The translations under genes and the position numbers were made by a program. The notes under the pieces were generated by a model. That model saw nothing but the letters and a program-made list of their open reading frames with translations, ran no database searches and was not told the DNA's origin. From positions 1 to 42,963 of IMG/VR virus record IMGVR_UViG_3300043787_000124: DNA of 42,963 nt; one strand, 5' to 3'. This DNA comes from a virus. Each line of letters starts with the position of its first letter. The stretch's first letter is position 1. Below are positions 1-42,963 of the stretch, in pieces.

Positions 1-540
1 GCGAGCTGGAGCCGTACGCCACGGTGATCGGCGAGCTGGAGCCGTACGCCTCGGTGCGCGGCGAGCTGGAGCCGTACGCCTCGGTGCGCGGCGAGCTGGA
101 GCCGTACGCCACGGTGCGCGGCGAGCTGGAGCCGTACGCCACGGTGCGCGGCGAGCTGGAGCCGTACGCCTCGGTGATCGGCGAGCTGGAGTCGTACGCC
201 ACGGTGCGCGGCGAGCTGGAGTCGTACGCCTCGGTGCGCGGCGAGCTGGAGCCGTACGCCTCGGTGCGCGGCGAGCTGGAGTCGTACGCCTCGGTGCGCG
301 GCGAGCTGGAGCCGTACGCCTCGGTGATCGGCGAGCTGGAGCCGTACGCCTCGGTGCGCGGCGAGCTGGAGCCGTACGCCACGGTGCGCGGCGAGCTGGA
401 GCCGTACGCCACGGTGATCGGCGAGCTGGAGCCGTACGCCTCGGTGATCGGCGAGCTGGAGCCGTACGCCTCGGTGCGCGGCGAGCTGGAGTCGTACGCC
501 ACGGTGATCGGCGAGCTGGAGTCGTGCGCCACGAGGGTGG
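1..540. repeat. 30-bp tandem repeat tract, left end
   Basis: Seventeen regular 30-bp units begin at 1, 31, 61 and so on to 481, and a degenerate unit begins at 511. Units differ only at a few bases: c/t in the 12th position, a/t at the 21st and at/cg at positions 27-28. All other bases are identical between copies, which implies recent expansion or homogenisation. The tract codes for the decapeptides on the minus strand and has no spacers. Confidence 0.95.
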
Positions 541-688
541 GCCGGGCGGTCCCCTTCACCCTGATGACGTGGCCGGCCGGGATGTCGCGGATCTCGTAGC
601 GGCCGTCGGTCTCGATGACGGGGTAGTCGCCGGCCGCGATGGCCGCGTTGAATGCGGCCTGGTCGCTGACGGGGATGTCCTTGTACAC
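1..688 (-). CDS. Decapeptide-repeat protein, N-terminal part (continues across the window junction)
   Basis: The GTG start at 688-686 follows a GAAAGG ribosome site by 6 bases. About 50 non-repeated residues (beginning VYKDIPVSDQAAFNAAIAAG) are followed by tandem ten-residue units of the form T-[V/E]-A-[Y/H]-[G/D]-S-S-S-P-[I/R] to the window edge. No stop occurs, so the gene is cut by the edge. With the 64-base terminal overlap removed the frame joins exactly to the C-terminal part at 42094-42963, giving a protein of about 497 residues. Regular A-x-D/G-S-S decapeptides are known in actinophage proteins and are usually modelled as a beta-helix or fibre-like stack. The function is unknown and no catalytic motif is visible. 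It sits in the early leftward gene set, not among the tail genes. Confidence 0.8.
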   Translation of the reverse strand, partial: MYKDIPVSDQAAFNAAIAAGDYPVIETDGRYEIRDIPAGHVIRVKGTARPTLVAHDSSSPITVAYDSSSPRTEAYGSSSPITEAYGSSSPITVAYGSSSPRTVAYGSSSPRTEAYGSSSPITEAYGSSSPRTEAYDSSSPRTEAYGSSSPRTEAYDSSSPRTVAYDSSSPITEAYGSSSPRTVAYGSSSPRTVAYGSSSPRTEAYGSSSPRTEAYGSSSPITVAYGSSS

Positions 689-1986: not shown

Positions 1987-2510
1987 GACGCCGACACCTC
2001 CTCGACGCGCTCGTACTCGCACTCCTGGTCGTAGTCGCCCTCGTAGTCGGGACCCGACCCGGACGCCCGCACCCGGTACGTGCCGGACTCCAGCGGACCG
2101 CCGTTGTAGTCGTAGTGTTCGTTCACTTCTTCCGCCGTCGGGCAGTGGTAGTACCGGTGCGCCTCCGGGCAGTCCGCGTGCTTGCCCACGGCGCACGCTG
2201 CGCACGGGGTGAACGGGTAGCACGCGCGGCAGGCGCAGCCGAGGAAGCCGCCGTGCGTCTGCAGGTGGACCGTGTCGCCGCGCTGGCGGTCGTGCTCGCA
2301 GCAGCACACGTCGTCCCCGTCCTTGGAATTGCGGCACTCGTCGGGGTGCGTCAGCTCCCGGTCGACCTCCGCCTCGGTGTCCTCCCCCGGCTGCGCGTGC
2401 CCGTTGCAGTGGCTGTTCGCGTCGAAGTCGGCGCACTGGTCGCTGACGTCGTCGTGGTAGTGCACGACGGTCACGACGAGCGTGTGCCACGGGTCGCGCC
2501 AATCGCTCAC
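1983..2510 (-). CDS. Cys- and His-rich acidic protein (175 aa)
   Basis: The GTG start at 2510 overlaps the stop of the annealing-protein gene. The protein has more than a dozen cysteines, including DVCCCEHD, CACRACYPFTPCAACAVG and KHADC, plus many His and Asp/Glu. This suggests binding of several metal ions. The C-terminus is strongly acidic (DYEGDYDQECEYERVEEVS). I do not recognise a family. Coupling to the recombination protein suggests a shared expression window but not necessarily a shared function. Confidence 0.7.
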   Translation of the reverse strand: MSDWRDPWHTLVVTVVHYHDDVSDQCADFDANSHCNGHAQPGEDTEAEVDRELTHPDECRNSKDGDDVCCCEHDRQRGDTVHLQTHGGFLGCACRACYPFTPCAACAVGKHADCPEAHRYYHCPTAEEVNEHYDYNGGPLESGTYRVRASGSGPDYEGDYDQECEYERVEEVSAS

Positions 2511-3619
2511 GCCGCCACCTGCTCCCGCTTCAGGTCCTGGAACCTCGCGGAGCCCATGTCGCCGAGCCGCTTCATCTGCGCCTCGTCCAGCAGCCCGTAC
2601 GACGCCGCCGTCTCGGCCTCGGCCCTGAGCGCGGCCAGCGCGTCCACAGTCGGGGCGTCGGCGATCAGCCGGTCCAGACGCCCGAGCTCCTTCTCGCGCG
2701 CCGCGTCCGGCGCGAGCTGCACCGGCGCCGCGTGCACCGGACCCGGCAGTTCGCCGGCCCCGTACACGGGCGCCGGGTTGCGCTGCCGCATCGGACGCGG
2801 CTCGAACTTCGACAACTCGTCGATAGCCGTCTTGCCCTCGACGTACGTGAGCTCCTTCAGCGACCCGATCGTGCGGCCGGTCAGCTGCGACGCCCACTCG
2901 TGCCGGGCGTCCCCGCTGACGTCGAGCCGTTCCCGCAGCATGGCGTTGACCTTGCGGACCATCGGGTCGGTGATGTACCCGTCGGCCGTCCGGTTCGGGG
3001 CCGTACGCTGCTGCGCAGGCGCAGGGGTCGACCACTCGTCCGGCGGCGGCGGCGCGCCCTGCTCGGCGCGCGCCTTGCGCTCGAACGCCGCCTGCGCGTC
3101 CTGGGCCGTCGGCTGCGCCTGCTGCGGCTCCTCAGACCCCTGCTTCTCGTGCAGGTCCGTCTTCGCCCAAAGGTTCAACGCCCACCCGAAACGCATCGCC
3201 GCATTGCGCAGCGCGTCCCCGATCACCTCCTTCACCAGGTCGCCCTTGGCCTTGTTCCCGGTGCCGTTCTCCGCCGAGCCGTAACCGAGCCGGGTCACCC
3301 CGCACACGGTCAACCTGATCCACAGGCCGCCGAACTGGTCGAACTTCGGCAGCCCGTCCCCGTCGAACGCCAGCGGCTCCCAGGACCACCCCGGGTCGGC
3401 GTCCAGCAGCGCGTCCGTGGTCTCGGCGTGCCCGACGTAGTCGAGGTGGATGTGCTGCGTGGACACCCACGCGGCGCACACGTGGCACTTGGCCTTGGCG
3501 TGCTTCTCGCACGTGCCCTTGTTTTTGGTGCAGTTGCCGCACGTGACGCGCGGCAGCTTGCCGACCAGGGTGGCCGGGACCTCCCGGCGCAGGAACGCCA
3601 GGCCCTCTTGCGGTGTCAT
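2507..3619 (-). CDS. Rad52-like single-strand annealing protein (370 aa)
   Basis: This is the likely recombination mediator that anneals complementary single strands during phage replication and repair. The ATG start at 3619 overlaps the upstream stop as ATGA. Residues about 55-160 carry the Rad52/Rad22-type core: HLDYVGHAETTDALLDADP, then PGWSWEPL, a beta-strand block ending in CGVTRLGYG, and a helix GDALRNAAMRFGWALNLW. An N-terminal Cys cluster (C27, C30, C37, C45, C48) interrupts the usual start of the fold and looks like a zinc knuckle. The C-terminal 200 residues are linker plus a helical region and may bind partners. The family call rests on pattern recognition. Confidence 0.75.
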   Translation of the reverse strand: MTPQEGLAFLRREVPATLVGKLPRVTCGNCTKNKGTCEKHAKAKCHVCAAWVSTQHIHLDYVGHAETTDALLDADPGWSWEPLAFDGDGLPKFDQFGGLWIRLTVCGVTRLGYGSAENGTGNKAKGDLVKEVIGDALRNAAMRFGWALNLWAKTDLHEKQGSEEPQQAQPTAQDAQAAFERKARAEQGAPPPPDEWSTPAPAQQRTAPNRTADGYITDPMVRKVNAMLRERLDVSGDARHEWASQLTGRTIGSLKELTYVEGKTAIDELSKFEPRPMRQRNPAPVYGAGELPGPVHAAPVQLAPDAAREKELGRLDRLIADAPTVDALAALRAEAETAASYGLLDEAQMKRLGDMGSARFQDLKREQVAA

Positions 3620-3921
3620 CGGTTCCCCTGCTGCCGGTTGGTCGGGACGTAGTAGAAGCGGATGCGCACCCCGTCGAAACGCCCGGACGTGGAGGTCGTG
3701 CCGTCCGGCGCCGTGTGCGCGGGCGTGTCCAACGCGGCGGCGATCCGCGCGACGCGGTCCGCGCCGAGCAGGTCCGATGTCGCGTACACCAGCACCGGGA
3801 TGACCGCCGGCACCGGGACCGCCGGGTGGTTTTCGAGCCATGCGGCCGCGGTGCGCAGCCCGCGGATGCGGTCCGCGCGCGCCTGCGCGCCGGCGACCGC
3901 GTCGTGGTCGGCGAAAGCCAT
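3616..3921 (-). CDS. Hypothetical protein (101 aa)
   Basis: The start is ATG 3921, which touches the stop of the upstream gene. An N-terminal helical region (AVAGAQARADRIRGLRTAAAWL) is followed by a compact alpha/beta stretch ending FDGVRIRFYYVPTNRQQGNR. It is 4-base coupled to the annealing protein. No recognised motif. Confidence 0.65.
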   Translation of the reverse strand: MAFADHDAVAGAQARADRIRGLRTAAAWLENHPAVPVPAVIPVLVYATSDLLGADRVARIAAALDTPAHTAPDGTTSTSGRFDGVRIRFYYVPTNRQQGNR

Positions 3922-4313
3922 CACGCACTCACCACCCGGCGCGGATCGACGTGGCAGCCCGCGCAACCGTCGGCGCACACCCCGTCGGGGCCGCGGTCGT
4001 GGACGACGGGCTCGCCGTGCACGGCTTCCAGGTACTCCAGCGGGGTACGCGCCTGCGACCGGCACCGGTGCGTCGCGTACACCGTCACCACGGCGTGCGG
4101 CTGCACGCTGCGGGCCCGGGAGTACCGCACGGAGTAGGCGGCGTCCAGGGGGCGTTCCTCGACCGCGGTCTCGCAGCCCAGGACCGCGGCCCAGGCGCGC
4201 ACGGCGCCCTCGTCGCGCACCCGGATCGCCAGGGACACCCTGGTCGCGGTGCGGTTCATGCCGAGGGCGAGGATCGGCGGGAGGTTCTCGGCGGCGATCG
4301 ACAGGATGCTCAC
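3921..4313 (-). CDS. Hypothetical protein with C-terminal Cys cluster (130 aa)
   Basis: The GTG start at 4313 overlaps the upstream stop. The N-terminal half looks alpha/beta (NLPPILALGMNRTATRVSLA then AVRAWAAVLG). The C-terminal region contains THRCRSQARTPLEYLEAVHG and DGVCADGCAGCHVDP, a possible small zinc site with H and C ligands. The family is not recognised. Confidence 0.65.
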   Translation of the reverse strand: MSILSIAAENLPPILALGMNRTATRVSLAIRVRDEGAVRAWAAVLGCETAVEERPLDAAYSVRYSRARSVQPHAVVTVYATHRCRSQARTPLEYLEAVHGEPVVHDRGPDGVCADGCAGCHVDPRRVVSA

Positions 4314-4639
4314 GCGGCCCGACCCCCTTCCGCGAAGTTCTCGTCGATGCCGTCGTCGAAGTCGCCGGGCGGCTCCTGCGTCGGCGCCCCCGCGTCGTCG
4401 TCGGGCGTCCACACGAGCGTGAACGGACCGTCCTCGAGCGCGGACTCGGCGTCCTCGTCGTCGGACAGGTCGAAGAACGCGTCGCTGCCGGTGACCATCA
4501 GCGCCGGGCAGTCCACCGGCGGGAGCGCCCCGGCATAGGTGCGGGCGGTGCGCATCTGCCACGCGTAGCCGCGGGCGTCCACCAGCACGGCCCGGTCCGG
4601 CAGGGCGCGCAGCCCCGAGACCGTCGTGATCGCGCTCAT
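4310..4639 (-). CDS. Acidic protein with shared DDGID-NFAEGG C-terminal tail (109 aa)
   Basis: The start is ATG 4639. The body is a small alpha/beta domain followed by an acidic linker (residues about 57-95). The last 15 residues (95-109) read DDGIDENFAEGGRAA and closely match the last residues of the unrelated Cys-rich protein at 41038-41529 (DDGIDDNFAEGGLPA). Both tails follow an EPP motif, and the DNA coding for 27 bases of the tail (4332-4358) differs from 41060-41086 at one base. The tail may be a docking or targeting peptide. The body is not recognised. Confidence 0.7.
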   Translation of the reverse strand: MSAITTVSGLRALPDRAVLVDARGYAWQMRTARTYAGALPPVDCPALMVTGSDAFFDLSDDEDAESALEDGPFTLVWTPDDDAGAPTQEPPGDFDDGIDENFAEGGRAA

Positions 4640-5749: not shown

Positions 5750-5777
5750 ACGCCGTCCCGTGGCAGCGGGACGGCGT
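5750..5777 (-). terminator. Strong hairpin terminator after the first leftward operon
   Basis: Arms 5750-5760 and 5767-5777 are a perfect 11-bp inverted repeat with a 6-base loop, beginning within the TAA stop of the 5777-6037 gene on the minus strand. It would stop leftward transcription from the immunity region unless antitermination or a second promoter acts downstream. Confidence 0.7.
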
Positions 5778-6037
5778 TATTGCTTCTTGCGGGCTTTCGC
5801 GGAACGCCGGGCCAGATCGGCGAAGTAGGCCCTGCGGGCCGAGACGGCGCGCTGTGCGCGCTCCGCCGGGGGGAGCAGGCCCTCGGGGTCGACCTGGCGC
5901 TCGAAGCGCGCGAGGAACGCGCGGGTGCCGTTGGCGGTGCGCGCGGCCCGGTCCTCGGTGTTGGCCCAGGAGGTGTGCGAGGCGCACCGGGCGCGCAGGG
6001 ACCGCTCGGCCGGGGTCATCGACTCGAAGACCGTCAC
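5777..6037 (-). CDS. Conserved actinobacterial small helical protein (86 aa)
   Basis: The GTG start at 6037 overlaps the stop of the HTH gene. It is highly charged and helical, with segments SLRARCASHTSWANTEDRAA, TRAFLARFERQVDPEGLLPP and a Lys/Arg-rich C-terminus. Proteins of this pattern (SWANT.DR..RT..AR..F..RFE..VDP.G.L.P..RA.RA) are widespread hypothetical proteins in Streptomyces chromosomes and phages. Function unknown. Co-transcription with the regulator suggests a role in the lysis-lysogeny switch or host takeover. Confidence 0.75.
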   Translation of the reverse strand: MTVFESMTPAERSLRARCASHTSWANTEDRAARTANGTRAFLARFERQVDPEGLLPPAERAQRAVSARRAYFADLARRSAKARKKQ

Positions 6038-6306
6038 GAAGCCACTCCCGCGCCATCGGCAGCAGCGAGCAGCTCTGTACGGTCCTGGACGTTGAGCGCG
6101 TCGCAGATCCGCTTGTACACAGCCGGGCTCATAGAGGCGCGAGTACCGCGTTCCAGGTGGCCGATGTAGCTGTAGCTGACGCCCGCGCGCTTCGCCAGCT
6201 GAGCCTGGTTGAAGCCGCTGAGCTGGCGCAGGCGGCGCAGCTTGCGCCGGTCGACACGCACCATGGGTGTCTCTTGCGCGATGTTCGGTGCCGGGTCACT
6301 GGCCAT
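6034..6306 (-). CDS. XRE-family HTH regulator, Cro-like candidate (90 aa)
   Basis: A helix-turn-helix occupies about residues 28-70 (NQAQLAKRAGVSYSYIGHLE, then MSPAVYKRICDALNV). It is divergently arranged with the 6417-6806 regulator and faces the leftward lytic genes, so a Cro-like role is favoured, but the two regulators could be swapped. The ATG at 6306 has no ribosome site and sits 6 bases from a good -10 box (minus-strand TACTGT, 6318-6313) with TTGACC 17 bases upstream. That predicts a leaderless transcript. An alternative internal ATG lies at 6264. Confidence 0.8.
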   Translation of the reverse strand: MASDPAPNIAQETPMVRVDRRKLRRLRQLSGFNQAQLAKRAGVSYSYIGHLERGTRASMSPAVYKRICDALNVQDRTELLAAADGAGVAS

Positions 6307-6416: not shown

Positions 6417-6806
6417 ATGGAGACCCTTCCCGACGCGATCAGGACGCGCCGCGAACGACTGGGCATCAGCCAGAGCCGCGCCGCCCGCGTCGCCGGCGTC
6501 TCGCGCACGACATGGGTCAACTGGGAGACGGGCGCCACGGTGCCCGAGCGCTTCAACTACGCGAAGATCGAGAATCCGCTCGAGTGGGAACCGGGCTCTG
6601 TCGAAGCCGTTCTCGGCGGTCGACCACCCGTCGTGCGCCGCTCAGAGCAGGGTCCTCCGCCCGAGCTCCCGCAAGTCACCGCGCGGGAGTGGGCCCGGTT
6701 CGACCCGGTCGACCAGGAGATGATCCTCAACGCGATCCGGATCGCCCGGGCGCGCCAGGACCCCGAACTACTGCGCGCCAGCAGGGGCCACACCCCGGAA
6801 ACGTGA
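6417..6806 (+). CDS. XRE-family HTH regulator, probable immunity repressor (129 aa)
   Basis: An N-terminal HTH spans about residues 5-55 (RRERLGISQSRAARVAGVSR, then TWVNWETG). The next block, NYAKIENPLEWEPGSVEAVL, is typical of actinophage and Streptomyces repressors of this type. The C-terminal half (FDPVDQEMILNAIRIARARQ) is helical and may mediate oligomerisation. It is transcribed rightward toward attP and the integrase, which fits a lysogeny-maintenance repressor. The ATG at 6417 lacks a clear ribosome site. An upstream ATG at 6395 is in a different frame. Confidence 0.75.
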   Translation: METLPDAIRTRRERLGISQSRAARVAGVSRTTWVNWETGATVPERFNYAKIENPLEWEPGSVEAVLGGRPPVVRRSEQGPPPELPQVTAREWARFDPVDQEMILNAIRIARARQDPELLRASRGHTPET

Positions 6807-7068: not shown

Positions 7069-7113
7069 CGCCTTCTAAGCGCTTGGTCGCAGGTTCGAGT
7101 CCTGCTGGGGGCA
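7069..7113 (+). other. Candidate attP core: 3' part of a tRNA-Arg(UCU) gene
   Basis: From the anticodon arm to the discriminator base this is tRNA sequence. The loop is 7072-7078 with anticodon TCT (7074-7076), the T stem-loop is 7089-7105 with perfect GCAGG/CCTGC arms, and the acceptor 3' strand is 7106-7112 followed by A 7113. The 5' half of the tRNA is missing: nothing upstream pairs with the acceptor strand. A 3' tRNA fragment 112 bases before a tyrosine integrase is the usual signature of an attP core that restores the host tRNA on integration. The exact crossover and identity length need the host sequence. Confidence 0.7.
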
Positions 7114-7192
7114 CAAACCCACTCCCACCTGCACAATCACGTGACAGTCCCCCGGGACGGAACTAGCATGCCGCCCATAGACCAAGCGCCTA

Positions 7193-7224: not shown

Positions 7225-8181
7225 GTGCCGCTACTCGCCCCGTACATACGATCCTGGACTCGCAGCCTGCGCTCCGCCAACAAGGCCGAATCCACACAGC
7301 GCGTCTACCTGTCCGCCGCCCGCACCCTCGACGAGTTCCTCGCCGCACTCCCCCACTCCTACCTCGCCGCGTTCCCCGACGACCCCCGCGACGAGACCGA
7401 CGACCTGCAGCCACCCGAAACCGTCGCCGAAATCACCCGCACCCACCTCGAGGCGTACATCGCCGTCACCGCACTGCGCACCAGCGCCGGCAACGCCGCC
7501 GTGAAATACCGCTCCATCCAACAGCTGTTCCGCTACCTCGCCGAGGAACAGGAGATCCCCGGGTCCCCGATGGTGAACATGACGTCGCCCATCATCCCGG
7601 ACGTGCCGGTGCCGGTCATCCCCGACGACGCCCTGCGCAAACTCTTCGCGGCCTGCCGCGGCCGCGGCTACACGCAGGTGCGCGACACCGCCATCATCAT
7701 GCTGTTCCTCGACACCGGCGTCCGCCTCTCCGAGCTGACGGTTCGTCAGCTCGGCGACGCGGACATGGACCAAGACGTGCTGCACATCGTCGCCAAGGGA
7801 CGCCGACCGCGGGCGGTGCCGTTCGGCAACAAGGCCGGCCTCGCGCTGGAGCGGTACCTGCGCGAGCGCGCGAAGCTCGGCGTGCCCGAGACGCAGACGG
7901 CATTGTGGATCTCGGCGCTGCGGCGCGACGCCCTGACGATCTGGGGCGTGGGCCAGATGCTGGGGCGCCGGTGCGCGCAGGCCGGGATCGAGAAGGTGCA
8001 CCCGCACCAGTTCCGCCACACGTTCAGCCACCTGTGGCTCGAGTCGGGCGGCGCCGAGACGGACCTGATGCGGCTGAACGGGTGGAAGTCGCGGCAGATG
8101 CTGTCGCGGTACGCCGCGGCCACGGCGGACAAGCGGGCACACGCGGCGCACCGGTCCAATTCCCCCGGCGACCGGTTCTGA
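7225..8181 (+). CDS. int: Tyrosine-type site-specific integrase (318 aa)
   Basis: Catalyses integration of the circular phage genome into the host attB. The N-terminal SAM-like core-binding domain is about residues 5-115; the catalytic domain is about 130-305. Visible catalytic residues are R167 (in GVRLSEL), K191 (AKGRRPR), H261 and R264 (HPHQFRHTF), W287 in place of the second His (LNGWKSRQ) and the nucleophile Y296 (MLSRYA). The length is normal for compact phage integrases without a large arm-binding domain. GAAGGGAG precedes the GTG start by 9 bases. It lies between the tRNA-Arg-derived attP candidate and the tRNA gene. Confidence 0.93.
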
Positions 8182-8200: not shown

Positions 8201-8274
8201 AGCAGGGTGGAGCAGTTCGGTAGCTCGTTGGGCTCATAACCCAGAGGTCGCGGGTTCGAATCCCGTCCCTGCCA
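8201..8274 (+). tRNA. Initiator-type tRNA-fMet (CAT)
   Basis: A full cloverleaf is present: acceptor 8201-8207 with 8267-8273, D stem 8210-8213 with 8223-8226, anticodon stem-loop 8228-8244 with CAT at 8235-8237, T arm 8250-8266, discriminator A 8274. Three initiator hallmarks are visible: a mismatch at 1:72 (A 8201, C 8273), an A11:U24 pair, and three consecutive G:C pairs at the base of the anticodon stem. CCA is not encoded. A -10-like TATCCT (8189-8194) lies 6 bases upstream. It could be a functional phage tRNA or host tRNA captured at an attachment site. Confidence 0.8.
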
Positions 8275-8340
8275 CGGTCGCCGGTTCGAGTCCGACCGGG
8301 TCTTCGGGCCTGTAGCTCGGTCGGGAGAGCAGCGCAGCGC
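8275..8340 (+). ncRNA. tRNA-like element with 3' half preceding 5' half
   Basis: A variable-loop and T-arm-like segment comes first (8275-8296), followed by a strand (8297-8302) that pairs with 8307-8312 across a UUCG loop, with C:G closure. Then UA and a D-arm-like stem-loop follow (8315-8318 pairing with 8327-8330). This is the order T arm, closed acceptor, D arm, as in a circularly permuted tRNA, or the junction of two degraded tandem tRNA genes. An anticodon arm cannot be completed convincingly: only three pairs form between 8334-8336 and 8270-8272. The role is unknown. Confidence 0.4.
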
Positions 8341-9367: not shown

Positions 9368-9575
9368 GTCCCCGATCCCTCTCCGCCGCCAGCATCGCCC
9401 TCACCCGCTCGGAGAAGTGGTTCTCGTGGCGTATGTCCTTGAGTTTACCCGCGACGAGCGACACCTCCTGGCCCCGCGCGACCACCCTCTCCAGGTGCTC
9501 GCGCGACGCCAGCACCGCGCGCTCCGCGGTCGTGATCTCCTCCTCGTCCCGCACGCGCCTACGCCACAGTCGCAT
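9351..9575 (-). CDS. Small coiled-coil protein of the lysis region (74 aa)
   Basis: The start is ATG 9575 after GAGGGTGG. It is highly charged and helical throughout (RRRVRDEEEITTAERAVLAS, then EHLERVVARGQEVSLVAGKL), with KDIRHENHFSERVRAMLAAE near the end. Short proteins with this VA..L..IR..NHF.E pattern occur beside lysis genes in many Streptomyces phages. It probably acts with the neighbouring holin-like proteins, but the role is unproved. Confidence 0.65.
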   Translation of the reverse strand: MRLWRRRVRDEEEITTAERAVLASREHLERVVARGQEVSLVAGKLKDIRHENHFSERVRAMLAAERDRGHAHGG

Positions 9576-9837
9576 CTCGTCCACCCTCGGCAGCGGACGC
9601 GGCGGGCAGGCTGGCCAGGACGTGATTGGCGGTACGCCCATACTCGAGCATCTCCTCCACCTGTTTATCGCTGCGTTCCCGCGCCTTGCGCTCGTGTTCG
9701 AAAGCCTCTTTGTACAGGTCTACCAGGCGTTCGCGGTCCCGCAGCGCGCTGCGCGGCACGAGCCGGCCGGAGACGAGCGCGCCGAGGACGACGACCACGA
9801 GACCCCACGGGCCAGCCTGGGAGAAGACGATTTCCAA
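9559..9837 (-). CDS. Single-TM holin-like protein, TTG start (92 aa)
   Basis: The only in-frame start that keeps the N-terminal membrane segment is TTG 9837, one base after the endolysin stop, which suggests coupled translation. A TM helix (residues about 8-25: AGPWGLVVVVLGALVSGRLV) is followed by an amphipathic charged helix (DRERLVDLYKEAFEHERKAR) and VEEMLEYGRTANHVLASL. This layout is common for small proteins next to endolysins in Streptomyces phages and is often annotated as a holin. Confidence 0.65.
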   Translation of the reverse strand: MEIVFSQAGPWGLVVVVLGALVSGRLVPRSALRDRERLVDLYKEAFEHERKARERSDKQVEEMLEYGRTANHVLASLPAASAAEGGRDATVA

Positions 9838-37061: not shown

Positions 37062-37363
37062 CAGTGACGGCAGTGACAGCAAAACCGCATCTTCCGTATG
37101 AGCGCCCCTGTGCGTGCGCGCGTTTCAGGGGCCGATAGCTCCCGGACTGCTGTCACTGCTGTCACTGTTCGGCTCCTGGTCTGCGCTGATATGGGTTTCT
37201 TGCTGTCACTGTTGCTGTCACTGTTGCTGTCACTGCCGTGGGATGAAGCGGGACATGGCGGACAAGAGATTGGTCTAGACCGATTCAGTTCCACGGGTCC
37301 GGGTCCTCCGGCAGTGACAGCAACTCCTCGGATTCGGGCTCGTCCAGTGACAGCAGCGACAGC
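37062..37363. repeat. Iteron cluster, candidate replication origin
   Basis: The 10-mer CAGTGACAGC (or its complement GCTGTCACTG) occurs exactly at 37071, 37149, 37158, 37202, 37214, 37226, 37312 and 37345, with near copies at 37062 and 37354. Three copies repeat at a 12-base period. Both orientations occur. The cluster spans the 235-base gap after the primase-helicase gene and its last codons. Iterons beside a replication initiator-type helicase are the usual sign of an origin. Confidence 0.6.
37269..37284. promoter_or_regulatory. Near-perfect 16-bp palindrome beside the helicase stop
   Basis: ATTGGTCTAGACCGAT is symmetric except for one wobble pair and contains CTAG, which is rare in GC-rich actinobacterial DNA. 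It ends one base before the helicase stop codon and sits among the iterons. It may be an operator or an initiator-binding element of the origin. Confidence 0.5.
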
Positions 37364-38763
37364 CCGACGTAGAACCGCTTGCCGTTCGACTGGGTGCTGT
37401 CGATCCCGTGCAGGGATTTGAGGTCGCGGCCGAACGGCGACGGCGCGAGCGGCTGCTCCCCCTCGCCGTGGCACCACTGCTCGTACGCGGCGCGCAGGAT
37501 CGCCGTGTTCAGCTTCACCATCTGGCCGCCGCCGATGCGGCAGCGCTCCTCGAGGAAGCGGCCCAGGTGGTTCTCCTCGGCGGCGTAGGCGAGGGTCTGC
37601 TCGAGCACGGCCGCGGGTTCGCGCATGCCGTGCGCGAACAGGTCCACCGCGCCCGCGGCGATCCACGCGAGGATGCCCGGACCCTCCTCGTCGACCAGGA
37701 TCCGGGCGAGGTTGTCGACGCGGTTCTCGTCGGGGACGCGGTGCAGAAATGGCACCAGGCGCAGGCGCCGCCAGAACGAGTCGCCCCCGGACTTGACGGC
37801 GGGCTTGTAGTTGCCGGCCAGCCACAGGTGGTGTGTGGGCTCGAATGTGAAAAAGTCCTGGCGCATGAACCGTGCGGTCAGCGCGTCTGCGCCGGTGAGC
37901 TCCTTGACCTTGGCCTCGTCGAACTGGTGGTCTTGGTTGACCTCGGAGGCGATGACGAGCCGGAGACCTTGCAGCCGGGCGATCTCGGTTTCGTGGCCGC
38001 CGTAGCGCTGCGCCATGAGGAACTTGGGCGGTGCGGTGGCGGCGTAGTCGCCGAGCAGGGCGCGCAGCACCTCGGCGAGTACCGTCTTGCCGTTCTGCCC
38101 GGAGCCGTAGAGGAACGGCAGGACGTGGTGGCGCACGTCGCCGGACGCGGCGTAGCCGGCGAGCCGCTGCACGTACCCGGTCATGTCGGGGTCGCCGCAG
38201 AAGGTGTCCTTCAGGAACGCGTCCCAGCGCGGCGTGGGCATCTCGGGGTCCGGGGGGACGTGTGTGGATCGGGTGTGCAGCTGGGCGCGGTCCGGGTCGA
38301 CGCGTTCGCCCGTGAGCAGGTCCACGACGCCGGCGGGGGTGTTCAGGTGCAGGCGCTTGGAGTCGAGCTGCTGGGCGTGGGCGAGCACGCGGGGGTCGGA
38401 GGAGGCGAGTTGCAGCATGGCGTTGATGCGCCTGGCGTTCAGGCTGCTGCGGCGGTGTTTCTCGCCGTCCTCGTCGGGTGCGAGCCACTGGCGCATGGTC
38501 CAGCGGGCCGCTTCCTGGAGTTTGTTCTCCTCGTCCCAGCGCCAGCGGTGGGTGTCCCAGGTGAGCCATTTGCCGGCCTGGGGGACGTAGCGGATGTTCG
38601 CGCCGTATTTGGCGACGAGGCGTTGGGCGTTGCCGTCGTCGGTGTAGCTGTAGCGGTCGCCCGGGGTGGGGGTGAGGTGCGCGCGGATCTCCGTGTCGTC
38701 GAAGCCGTGGTCGCGCATCCACTCTTCGTCGGCGGCGCCGGGTGCGAGCGGGTCGGCCGTCAT
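37285..38763 (-). CDS. SF3-type primase-helicase (492 aa)
   Basis: Main replication enzyme. The ATPase core shows Walker A GSGQNGKT (220-227), a Walker B-like strand LRLVIASEVN (267-276), motif C HLWLAGNYKP with N318 and an arginine finger in WRRLRLVPF (331-339), as in D5/SF3 phage helicases. The N-terminal 180 residues lack a clear catalytic primase motif but have the D5-N-like region (WTMRQWLAPDEDGEKHRRSS). The start is ATG 38763. It sits directly above the iteron cluster. Confidence 0.88.
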   Translation of the reverse strand: MTADPLAPGAADEEWMRDHGFDDTEIRAHLTPTPGDRYSYTDDGNAQRLVAKYGANIRYVPQAGKWLTWDTHRWRWDEENKLQEAARWTMRQWLAPDEDGEKHRRSSLNARRINAMLQLASSDPRVLAHAQQLDSKRLHLNTPAGVVDLLTGERVDPDRAQLHTRSTHVPPDPEMPTPRWDAFLKDTFCGDPDMTGYVQRLAGYAASGDVRHHVLPFLYGSGQNGKTVLAEVLRALLGDYAATAPPKFLMAQRYGGHETEIARLQGLRLVIASEVNQDHQFDEAKVKELTGADALTARFMRQDFFTFEPTHHLWLAGNYKPAVKSGGDSFWRRLRLVPFLHRVPDENRVDNLARILVDEEGPGILAWIAAGAVDLFAHGMREPAAVLEQTLAYAAEENHLGRFLEERCRIGGGQMVKLNTAILRAAYEQWCHGEGEQPLAPSPFGRDLKSLHGIDSTQSNGKRFYVGLSLLSLDEPESEELLSLPEDPDPWN

Positions 38764-39903: not shown

Positions 39904-40307
39904 AGTGCACCGTCCTCGAGGACCGCGGCTGCGAGCACCAGCGCGTCCGGGTCGGCCGCCTCGCGCGTGCCGCAGTAGACGCAGTGGTGGTGCGTCGGCA
40001 GCCACAGGGCCGTGGGGTGCGCGCTGTCGGGGTCGGTCAGCGGGCACGGGTGGTATGCGGGGAACCAATCGCACTCGGTCAGGTCGCGTTTGGCGTCGGG
40101 GCAGTCGCAGGCGGGTTCGCAGCGTTCGCCGGGGCAGGCCTCGGCGCGGTCGGCCTCGGCGTCCAGGAAATCGGCCAGGGCGGCCAGTGCCGGGCCCGGT
40201 TCGGTGCGCCCGAGGCGGATGCGCTGGGCCGCGCGGGCGAGCAGCTCGGCGTCGGCCAGCCGGCCGTGGTCGGGTCGCGCGTAGCCGAGTATGACCGGCG
40301 CAATCAC
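39900..40307 (-). CDS. Cys-rich hypothetical protein (135 aa)
   Basis: The GTG start is at 40307. Helical N-terminus (ELLARAAQRIRLGRTEPGPA, LAALADFLDAEADRAEA), then CPGERCEPACDCPDAKRDLT and CDWFPAYHPCPLTD, HHHCVYCGTREAADPDALVL. Several C and H ligands, probably zinc-binding. Coupled by overlaps to both neighbours. Confidence 0.6.
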   Translation of the reverse strand: MIAPVILGYARPDHGRLADAELLARAAQRIRLGRTEPGPALAALADFLDAEADRAEACPGERCEPACDCPDAKRDLTECDWFPAYHPCPLTDPDSAHPTALWLPTHHHCVYCGTREAADPDALVLAAAVLEDGAL

Positions 40308-41041
40308 GACGCGCCCCCGTCGGCGGCCGTGTCGGCCTGGTCGGTTGCGAGCAGCTCGGCGCGGGCTTCGGCGAGTTCGCGTCGGTGGCGTTCCTCGGCG
40401 GTGCGGGCGAGCTGGAGGAGGGCGTCGTGCTCGCGGCTGAGGGTGCGCACGTGGTCGGCGTCCTCCGGGAGCCACCAGCCGTCGCGGACGATGCGCTCGT
40501 GGACGCGGTGTGCGGCGGGGCTGCGGCCGTCCGGGTCGCCGCCGTCGGTCCCGAGTTCGCTCAGGCGGGGGGTGTAGATGCCGGCGGCGACGGCGTCGCG
40601 GGCGATCGAGTGGGCGCAGGTGCTGCACAGGTCGATGCCGAGCGAGTTCGAGACCCACACGCAGCCGCCGTCGCAGGCCTCGTTGTCGGTGCAGCCGCAG
40701 ACGTGGCAGGTGGCTTCCATGCCGCCGTTCCATGCCGTGTCGTCGTCGACGTCCTCGACGCCGGATGCCTGTCCGTCGTCGTGGTGGGCCTGCTTGTCGA
40801 GTTCGATGATGAGCAGGTCGCGCGAGCCGATGGTGGCCGCGAGCTCCTTCATCGTCGATTCGAGGCGGTGGCGGTCGAGTTTGATCTGCTCGACGAGGGC
40901 GCGCAGTTGGGAAGCGGACACGGGCGGCAGAGTGGAGTGAGTCACCACGATCTCGTCGGGTCGCAGGCCAGCGCATGCGTCGGATGCCTCGAGCGCGTCG
41001 AGGAACGTCTCGACGGCCTCGATCGGGGTCTGGTCGCTCAT
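40304..41041 (-). CDS. Large Cys-containing coiled-coil protein (245 aa)
   Basis: The start is ATG 41041. Helical ends (EAVETFLDALEASDACAGLR and ALLQLARTAEERHRRELAEA) flank a central zinc-like region ATCHVCGCTDNEACDGGCVW with CSTCAHS. The centre has a CxxCxC...C...C plus CxxC pattern, as in small zinc domains. The coiled-coil ends suggest oligomerisation. Function unknown. Confidence 0.65.
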   Translation of the reverse strand: MSDQTPIEAVETFLDALEASDACAGLRPDEIVVTHSTLPPVSASQLRALVEQIKLDRHRLESTMKELAATIGSRDLLIIELDKQAHHDDGQASGVEDVDDDTAWNGGMEATCHVCGCTDNEACDGGCVWVSNSLGIDLCSTCAHSIARDAVAAGIYTPRLSELGTDGGDPDGRSPAAHRVHERIVRDGWWLPEDADHVRTLSREHDALLQLARTAEERHRRELAEARAELLATDQADTAADGGAS

Positions 41042-41529
41042 GCGGGCAGGCCTCCCTCGGCGAAGTTGTCGTCGATGCCGTCGTCGTCCTGGTCGTAGTA
41101 GCCGTCGGGCGGCTCCTCCATGGGCGGCATGGGGTCGTCGTCGATCTCCTCGTCGTCGGGGCGCGGCGGGTGCGGCTGGAGGACGCCGTCGACGAGGTAG
41201 GCGGTGGTTCCGTCGGCGCGTTCGACCGGGATCGGGCAGGAGCAGGTGCCGGCGTAGCCGCCGCAGGTGCTGCAGCAGTGGCAGTCGTATTCGCCGCCGC
41301 CGCAGTTGCAGCAGTGTTCGGGGATCTTCTCCCCTCTGCCTCCGCAGTGTTCGCAGCCTTCGTCGGTGCCGAAGTCCATGTCTTCGCCGGAGCCGTCGCA
41401 GTTGCCGCAGTCGACGCGCTCCTCGGCGCAGATCCCGCAGCGGTCGTCCTCGGCCGCGGAGGCCGCGGGGAGGTCCAGCGCGGTGTGGTTGACGGTCTCC
41501 GGGGCGGTGGTCGACTCAGGCATTCGCAT
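41038..41529 (-). CDS. DnaJ-type zinc-finger protein with shared C-terminal tail (163 aa)
   Basis: Two ATGs (41529 and 41523) are possible; neither has a strong ribosome site. The middle is a DnaJ-like CxxCxGxG series: CGICAEERVDCGNCDGSGED, CEHCGGRGEK, CCNCGGGEYDCHCC and STCGGYAGTCSC. After an acidic Pro-rich linker the protein ends DDGIDDNFAEGGLPA, almost the same as the tail of the 4310-4639 product. It lacks a J domain, so the chaperone role of DnaJ is not implied; a zinc-dependent scaffold is more likely. Confidence 0.75.
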   Translation of the reverse strand: MRMPESTTAPETVNHTALDLPAASAAEDDRCGICAEERVDCGNCDGSGEDMDFGTDEGCEHCGGRGEKIPEHCCNCGGGEYDCHCCSTCGGYAGTCSCPIPVERADGTTAYLVDGVLQPHPPRPDDEEIDDDPMPPMEEPPDGYYDQDDDGIDDNFAEGGLPA

Positions 41530-42093: not shown

Positions 42094-42963
42094 CTAGTCG
42101 TTGTCCGCAGGGTCCGGCTCGGCGTCGTCGCGGAACAGCTCGTCGGAGTGCTCCGTGCCGGGACGCGGGTCGCCGTCGGGCTCCTCGACGTCGACGGTCG
42201 CGGCGCCCCCGTCGGTCTGCGCGATCGTGAACGACGCCTCCGCGCAGATCTCACCCACCAGCTCCCGCAAGTCGTCCATCGAGTTGCTGCCGTGGAACAG
42301 CCGGTCGGCCGTCGGGCCGTCCACGCCCAGCACCGCCCGCGCACCGGCCGAGATCGCGACGTGCTCCCGCACGAACCGACTCCGCAGCGACTCCGGCAGC
42401 GACGCCACCTCGACCGTCTTCGCCGACACATCCATCCGCGCGCCGACAGTGAGCAGCGCGTGGCCGCCGAAGCAATACCGGGTGCCGCACGGCGACTCGT
42501 ACGCCCAGTCGCCCTGGTCCCACTCCTCCGGGTGCGCCTCGACGCGCGCGAGCGTGTCGAGCACCGCCTCCGGATTGGTGGTGAGCGGCACGCGGTGCGT
42601 CAGCGCGCCGCCGGTGGCGGTGACCTCCCCGTTGACGCGGACGGTGACGTGCTCGTCGGCGGTGACGGTGCCGCGGCCGGTGTGAAGAACACTCGAATAG
42701 TCGTGCGCCTCGGTGATCGGCGAGCTGGAGTCGTGCGCCTCGGTGATCGGCGAGCTGGAGCCGTACGCCACGGTGATCGGCGAGCTGGAGCCGTACGCCT
42801 CGGTGCGCGGCGAGCTGGAGCCGTACGCCACGGTGATCGGCGAGCTGGAGCCGTACGCCTCGGTGCGCGGCGAGCTGGAGCCGTACGCCACGGTGCGCGG
42901 CGAGCTGGAGCCGTACGCCACGGTGATCGGCGAGCTGGAGCCGTACGCCTCGGTGCGCGGCGA
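42094..42963 (-). CDS. Decapeptide-repeat protein, C-terminal part
   Basis: No start is needed at the edge: this frame is the in-phase continuation of the 1-688 gene once the 64-base overlap is removed. Eight regular decapeptides and a degenerate one end near residue 90 of this segment. Then a structured domain follows: TADEHVTVRVNGEVTATGGA, HPEEWDQGDWAYESPCGTRY, CFGGHALLTVGARMDVSAKT and LGVDGPTADRLFHGSNSMDD. The CGT..C..GHA and late LF...NS pattern recurs in actinophage proteins of unknown function. The tail is acidic (DELFRDDAEPDPADND). Stop TAG 42094-42096. Confidence 0.8.
   Translation of the reverse strand, partial: SPRTEAYGSSSPITVAYGSSSPRTVAYGSSSPRTEAYGSSSPITVAYGSSSPRTEAYGSSSPITVAYGSSSPITEAHDSSSPITEAHDYSSVLHTGRGTVTADEHVTVRVNGEVTATGGALTHRVPLTTNPEAVLDTLARVEAHPEEWDQGDWAYESPCGTRYCFGGHALLTVGARMDVSAKTVEVASLPESLRSRFVREHVAISAGARAVLGVDGPTADRLFHGSNSMDDLRELVGEICAEASFTIAQTDGGAATVDVEEPDGDPRPGTEHSDELFRDDAEPDPADND
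42690..42963. repeat. 30-bp tandem repeat tract, right end
   Basis: Eight full units start at 42720 and repeat every 30 bases, plus 4 bases of a ninth, preceded by a degenerate unit from about 42690. The last 64 bases (42900-42963) equal bases 1-64 exactly. Units alternate V/E and I/R codon types as at the left end. Confidence 0.95.

Follow-up and report, generated by a model that had tools for sequence, protein, structure and literature searches.

Two small virus genes encode dissimilar proteins that end in nearly the same peptide, which raises the question of whether the DNA of these gene ends or the peptide itself has been conserved, and what a peptide kept in this way might do. The window, that is, the whole stretch of DNA analysed, is a virus record 42,963 bases long, and the features considered here are collected in Table 1. 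The original prediction had offered two kinds of answer, a common docking, degradation or localisation signal, or a recently copied cassette.

Translation agreed with the prediction that both proteins end in the same peptide: immediately before their stop codons, the 4310-4639 product terminates in EPPGDFDDGIDENFAEGGRAA and the 41038-41529 product in EPPDGYYDQDDDGIDDNFAEGGLPA. A recount likewise reproduced the single difference in 27 bases between 4332-4358 and 41060-41086, and the protein bodies are, as claimed, dissimilar, with NFAEGG being the sole BLASTP match between the two proteins. The predicted tail is real, although it had been drawn too short, since DDD...P..EPP also aligns and the true span is about 30 residues. 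The complete tail is acidic (10 of 30 and 13 of 34 residues) and consists of DDDxxxPxxEPP, a linker with a four-residue indel, and DDGID[D/E]NFAEGG. At the DNA level the indel is of 12 nt, or four codons, and is in frame.

Table 1. Coordinates of the tail-bearing genes, their tails and junctions, and landmark genes in the window.
Feature	Position	Strand	Remarks
109-aa gene with tail	4310..4639	(-)	Body begins ITTVSGLRALP; early leftward operon
163-aa cysteine-rich gene with tail (CxxC, zinc-ribbon-like)	41038..41529	(-)	No family match
Tail 1, DDDAGAPTQEPPGDFDDGIDENFAEGGRAA	4313..4402	(-)	Model pLDDT below about 51
Core of tail 1, DDGIDENFAEGG	4322..4357	(-)	
Tail 2, DDDPMPPMEEPPDGYYDQDDDGIDDNFAEGGLPA	41041..41142	(-)	Gapped alignment with tail 1
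Core of tail 2, DDGIDDNFAEGG	41050..41085	(-)	
Junction behind tail 1	4310..4339	(-)	Shine-Dalgarno-like GAAGGGGG in EGG codons; 4-nt GTGA overlap with 3921-4313 start
Junction behind tail 2	41038..41064	(-)	Shine-Dalgarno-like GAGGGAGG in EGG codons; 4-nt ATGA overlap with 40304-41041 start
Gene downstream of tail 1 junction	3921..4313	(-)	Starts MSILSIAAENL
Gene downstream of tail 2 junction	40304..41041	(-)	Starts MSDQTPIEAVE; unrelated to 3921-4313 by inspection
Repeat gene, N-terminal part (10-residue tandem repeat AYGSSSPRTE...)	1..688	(-)	Exits at contig start
Repeat gene, C-terminal part	42094..42963	(-)	Enters in phase from contig end; ends overlap by 4 nt (GCGA)
Single-strand annealing protein	2507-3619		Within leftward set
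Cro-like regulator	6034-6306		Leftward gene set begins there
Repressor-like gene	6417-6806		Rightward, opposite leftward set
Integrase	7225-8181		
Primase-helicase	37285-38763		Within leftward set

Both tail-bearing genes sit in one leftward set of tightly packed genes, and from this position it is fair to infer that both are early genes of this temperate virus of high-GC, probably actinobacterial hosts. The contig ends interrupt the repeat gene within a 30-bp tandem array, and its 10-residue repeat (AYGSSSPRTE/V..) reads in from either side. This gene, split in phase across the contig ends, shows the genome to be circular or circularly permuted; on a circular map the tail-bearing genes are about 5.7 kb apart instead of 36.7 kb. 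The record is nevertheless labelled linear, and its number of repeats may be collapsed or wrong. Adjoining the integrase gene, a 46-bp stretch (7069-7114) is 91% identical to mycobacteriophage tRNA-Lys genes and is a possible attP core; a tRNA-Met gene lies just past the integrase (8201-8275). Separately, the two flanking genes at 762-1208 and 42094-42771 (minus) end in loosely alike acidic strings (QDLFADDADEPSEH and DELFRDDAEPDPADND), possibly by chance, with a DLF/ELF motif that recalls those binding sliding clamps.

Part of the likeness between the tails is due to dual coding of the final EGG..A, which the original prediction had overlooked. The EGG codons of both tails form the Shine-Dalgarno sequence of the next gene, whose start overlaps the stop codon by 4 nt, so that EGGxxA-stop is expected at such junctions, and this end of the tail is largely explained by translation. 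The spacing from the Shine-Dalgarno sequence to the next start is equal at the two junctions, and 4-nt stop/start overlaps occur in 25 of the 67 minus-strand genes in the window. Neither DDGIDxNFA nor the upstream EPP is accounted for by the Shine-Dalgarno sequence of the junction.

Could two acidic tails have come to resemble each other by convergence or chance, their ends being forced by the Shine-Dalgarno sequence? The expected EGG..A-stop at GTGA/ATGA junctions speaks for this, as does a proteome-wide ungapped BLOSUM62 comparison in which the tail pair ranked best in the window but, with a score of 64, was not extreme, lying only about 2 sd above the shuffle maxima (mean 54.9, sd 4.2, highest 76). 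The case for homology consequently rests on near-identity, C-terminal register and the extended alignment. The gapped alignment of the tails scored 91, compared with a mean of 31 and a maximum of 67 in 20,000 shuffles; with the final EGG removed, it still scored 73 and surpassed all 20,000 shuffles (maximum 65). The tails also contain the sole pair of 12-mers with at most one mismatch in the predicted proteome, whereas none of 60 composition-preserving shuffles yielded any, and the DNA pattern of the core, present in exactly two copies in the window, was never reached in 100 dinucleotide shuffles. The homology of the tails exceeds chance, and convergence appears highly improbable. In the same proteome comparison, the third-ranking pair was LPAASAAE, common to the N-terminus of the 41038-41529 product and the C-terminus of a weakly supported ORF (9559-9798, minus), probably a chance match of low complexity.

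When two gene ends look alike, codon choice can tell whether a DNA junction was copied or a peptide conserved. Across the tail, codons for the same residue were identical in 10 of 15 cases, as compared with 10.08 expected from the codon usage of the genome under independent synonymous choice. Within the 36-nt core, four of the five differences are synonymous, against approximately 20% expected for random changes (P = 0.0065, which presumes common ancestry and equal mutation rates), and the single difference in its first 26 nt is non-synonymous. The 26/27-base identity mostly reflects the peptide together with a strong GC codon bias, and it appears to be the peptide, not the DNA, that is conserved. 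With synonymous identity at background and the differences in the core mostly synonymous, any copying is old. These counts do not support the recently copied cassette of the original prediction, and we discarded a recently duplicated DNA cassette because synonymous positions are no more alike than codon usage predicts.

The main rival explanation also operates at the DNA level, but is not bound to recent copying: gene end, Shine-Dalgarno sequence and next start would have been copied as a unit that gives good coupled translation, leaving the peptide as a by-product. The likeness indeed continues past the Shine-Dalgarno sequence to the stop and start, covering 51 nt at 84%, and the two junctions share the 4-nt overlap and the spacing. 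There is a clear case of such a cassette in nine consecutive overlapping small genes of another locus (L044, described below), and start-associated repeats are found at ribosome-binding sites in Cluster K mycobacteriophages and Cluster EF Microbacterium phages (PMC3203893, PMC7302621). However, conservation in the window reaches far beyond the ribosome-binding site, to some 90 nt ahead of the next start, and it respects codon register, with an in-frame indel. Moreover, the synonymous differences fall in the Shine-Dalgarno part (GAAGGGGGT versus GAGGGAGGC), the opposite of what a DNA-level repeat should show, and the copies in L044 are near-identical at wobble positions, unlike those in the window. 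We thus regard a copied junction as possible, at well below even odds.

Alternatively, recombination could have swapped the body of one gene, together with the following gene, around an old shared end, so that the tail would be a leftover boundary without selected function. Phage gene ends are known exchange sites, and at the two tails both the upstream bodies and the downstream genes are unrelated. There is also a precedent in Cluster O mycobacteriophages, where imperfect repeats at a gene end, with mostly synonymous differences, border an inserted gene (PMC4351075). Nevertheless, a functionless leftover should not retain 11 of 12 residues while synonymous sites drift to background, making this an unlikely explanation.

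Structural models were informative for one protein of the pair. AlphaFold2 gave the 4310-4639 product a pLDDT near 80 in parts of the body and of about 44-51 for residues 81-109; the tail starts where the predicted fold stops, in keeping with an appended, disordered tail. The 41038-41529 model, with a mean pLDDT of 47, was uninformative. A fold search with the 4310-4639 model returned no match below E = 0.05, the top ones being mainly small uncharacterised actinophage proteins. For the 41038-41529 product no relatives were found, and a tblastn match of this cysteine-rich protein to a tape-measure region (E = 0.06) was dismissed as not meaningful.

Among the signals of the original prediction, docking or localisation gains from the conservation of peptide over DNA and from the appended position of the tail on the 4310-4639 product, whereas a simple degradation tag is unlikely, since the proteins end differently, in RAA and LPA. 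It could be argued that the conservation stops at GG precisely because the tag is for degradation, or is processed after GG with its variable last three residues trimmed. Yet the Shine-Dalgarno sequence and spacer account for this end, and the two proteins do not share a Pup-type GGE/GGQ or ssrA-type LAA terminus; we give a degradation or processed tag very little credence.

The original prediction could be tested by seeking the tail elsewhere, and this gave no outside support: strict back-translated patterns found no copy in IMG/VR or in 85,000 genomes (GTDB contigs), and relaxed patterns none in IMG/VR. In phage records, tblastn with whole proteins and with the tails produced no tail match, the tails of 23-25 residues being weak queries, and whole proteins found nothing in plasmids. 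A scan for DGIDxNFA returned 20 stretches, none at a comparable C-terminal place in a convincing gene. Likewise, FAEGGxxA-stop was found in six IMG/VR stretches, against a rough chance estimate of nine, and none was tail-like. A PDB match of tail 2 (5udm, E = 0.18) was rejected as chance-level. We also compared C-termini in parts of TM4, Anaya, phiC31, ToastyFinz and ZL12, using mechanical ORFs judged by eye only, and among annotated, unrelated genes recognised no comparable pair.

The operon has its best relative in a distant, syntenic locus (L003), which carries an annealing protein (48%), an integrase and a homologue of gene 5777-6037. At the expected place (L003:8877-9182), it encodes a protein whose N-terminus resembles that of the 4310-4639 product (14/34 identical; BLASTP E = 0.002 for a single comparison, a modest homology), and the tail is absent from this counterpart. 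The tail is so far confined to one genome, among collections that hold no close relatives of this phage.

Together, the most likely reading, to which we assign a probability of about one half, is that an old shared tail has been kept as a docking motif. A homologous, acidic and probably disordered tail would have spread once within the same early operon, when a gene end was duplicated or recombined long ago, and would then have been kept for its amino-acid sequence rather than for its DNA. DDDxxxPxxEPP, the variable linker and DDGID[D/E]NFA would act as a short docking motif through which one partner gathers two small early proteins that are otherwise unrelated. The bases of the final EGGxxA-stop also provide the next gene with its Shine-Dalgarno sequence and overlapping start codon. 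As the tail was found nowhere else, the phage itself most plausibly encodes the common partner. What we infer beyond the results is that the tail docks, onto which partner, and that a gene end was duplicated. More tentatively, DDGID[D/E]NFA might be an address tag of the phage's own, at the C-terminus of unrelated early proteins, which would recruit them to one phage-encoded hub while the end of the tag supplies the ribosome-binding site of the next gene.

Several observations count against docking. The tail is present in two copies in one genome, and the evidence of selection comes from five substitutions. The non-synonymous nature of the single difference in the first 26 nt of the core is compatible with a constraint on DNA too. 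Additionally, tail-bearing relatives would be expected if the motif mattered and none was found, in collections without a close relative of the phage. Most small early proteins of phages have no known function, and a tail common to two of them would provide a handle on a common partner and tie two orphan genes to one process.

Encapsulin cargo-loading peptides, which differ from the tails in sequence, offer a parallel for such an arrangement: these are short C-terminal peptides, carried by unrelated proteins, that dock them to one partner. The acidic C-terminal tip of E. coli SSB, which ends in EPPMDFDDDIPF, resembles the tails in being disordered and acidic, and a string of the type EPPxDFDDxI is present in the 4310-4639 product. 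However, SSB tips end in Phe, usually as PF, and use the free carboxylate in binding, whereas the tails carry seven residues past Phe, and the second tail reads EPPDGYYDQDDD. An SSB tip was rejected because, despite the acidic, low-confidence tail, the proteins end in NFAEGGRAA and NFAEGGLPA, not in Phe, with no OB-fold SSB match; neither protein has an SSB match in Pfam or PHROGs. A calcium loop (thrombospondin type 3 / EF-hand, DxDxDGxxD) was also rejected: DQDDDGIDD fits in tail 2 only, and GDFDDGIDE of tail 1 lacks the first two ligands. The termini RAA and LPA, instead of GGE/GGQ or LAA, led us to reject Pup and ssrA-type tags.

Start-associated sequences and gene-end repeats are the nearest described relatives of this kind of arrangement (PMC3203893, PMC7302621, PMC4351075). 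The Start Associated Sequences of Cluster K and Cluster EF phages are many-copy DNA repeats with a 13-bp consensus, associated with small non-structural genes (PMC3203893, PMC7302621). As in the window, where both repeats run on into the following gene's Shine-Dalgarno sequence and start, they coincide with the ribosome-binding site of the small gene that follows, in phages of actinobacteria. In contrast, the window repeat is one of peptide, in two copies, and the 13-bp sequence GGGATAGGAGCCC has a single match with two mismatches in the window (1.07 expected by chance), away from the tail junctions.

Scanning 148 loci for gene ends that resemble each other led to L044, a contig from a Holophagaceae MAG that also encodes a phage-type single-strand annealing protein. 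Here (L044:2379-5692), nine small genes in a row, all overlapping, have REAL-EGG(K), REAL-GRE(TK) or variants as their C-terminal peptides, most of them encoded by a near-identical GAAGCCCTGGRRRGGG that doubles as the Shine-Dalgarno sequence of the next gene. This run is the picture of a DNA-level junction cassette. As in the window, neighbouring genes that are otherwise unrelated end in one peptide whose codons take in the next gene's Shine-Dalgarno sequence; but L044 has some nine copies of near-identical DNA, with a short motif confined to the vicinity of the Shine-Dalgarno sequence, whereas the window has two copies of a longer peptide, with wobble positions that have drifted.
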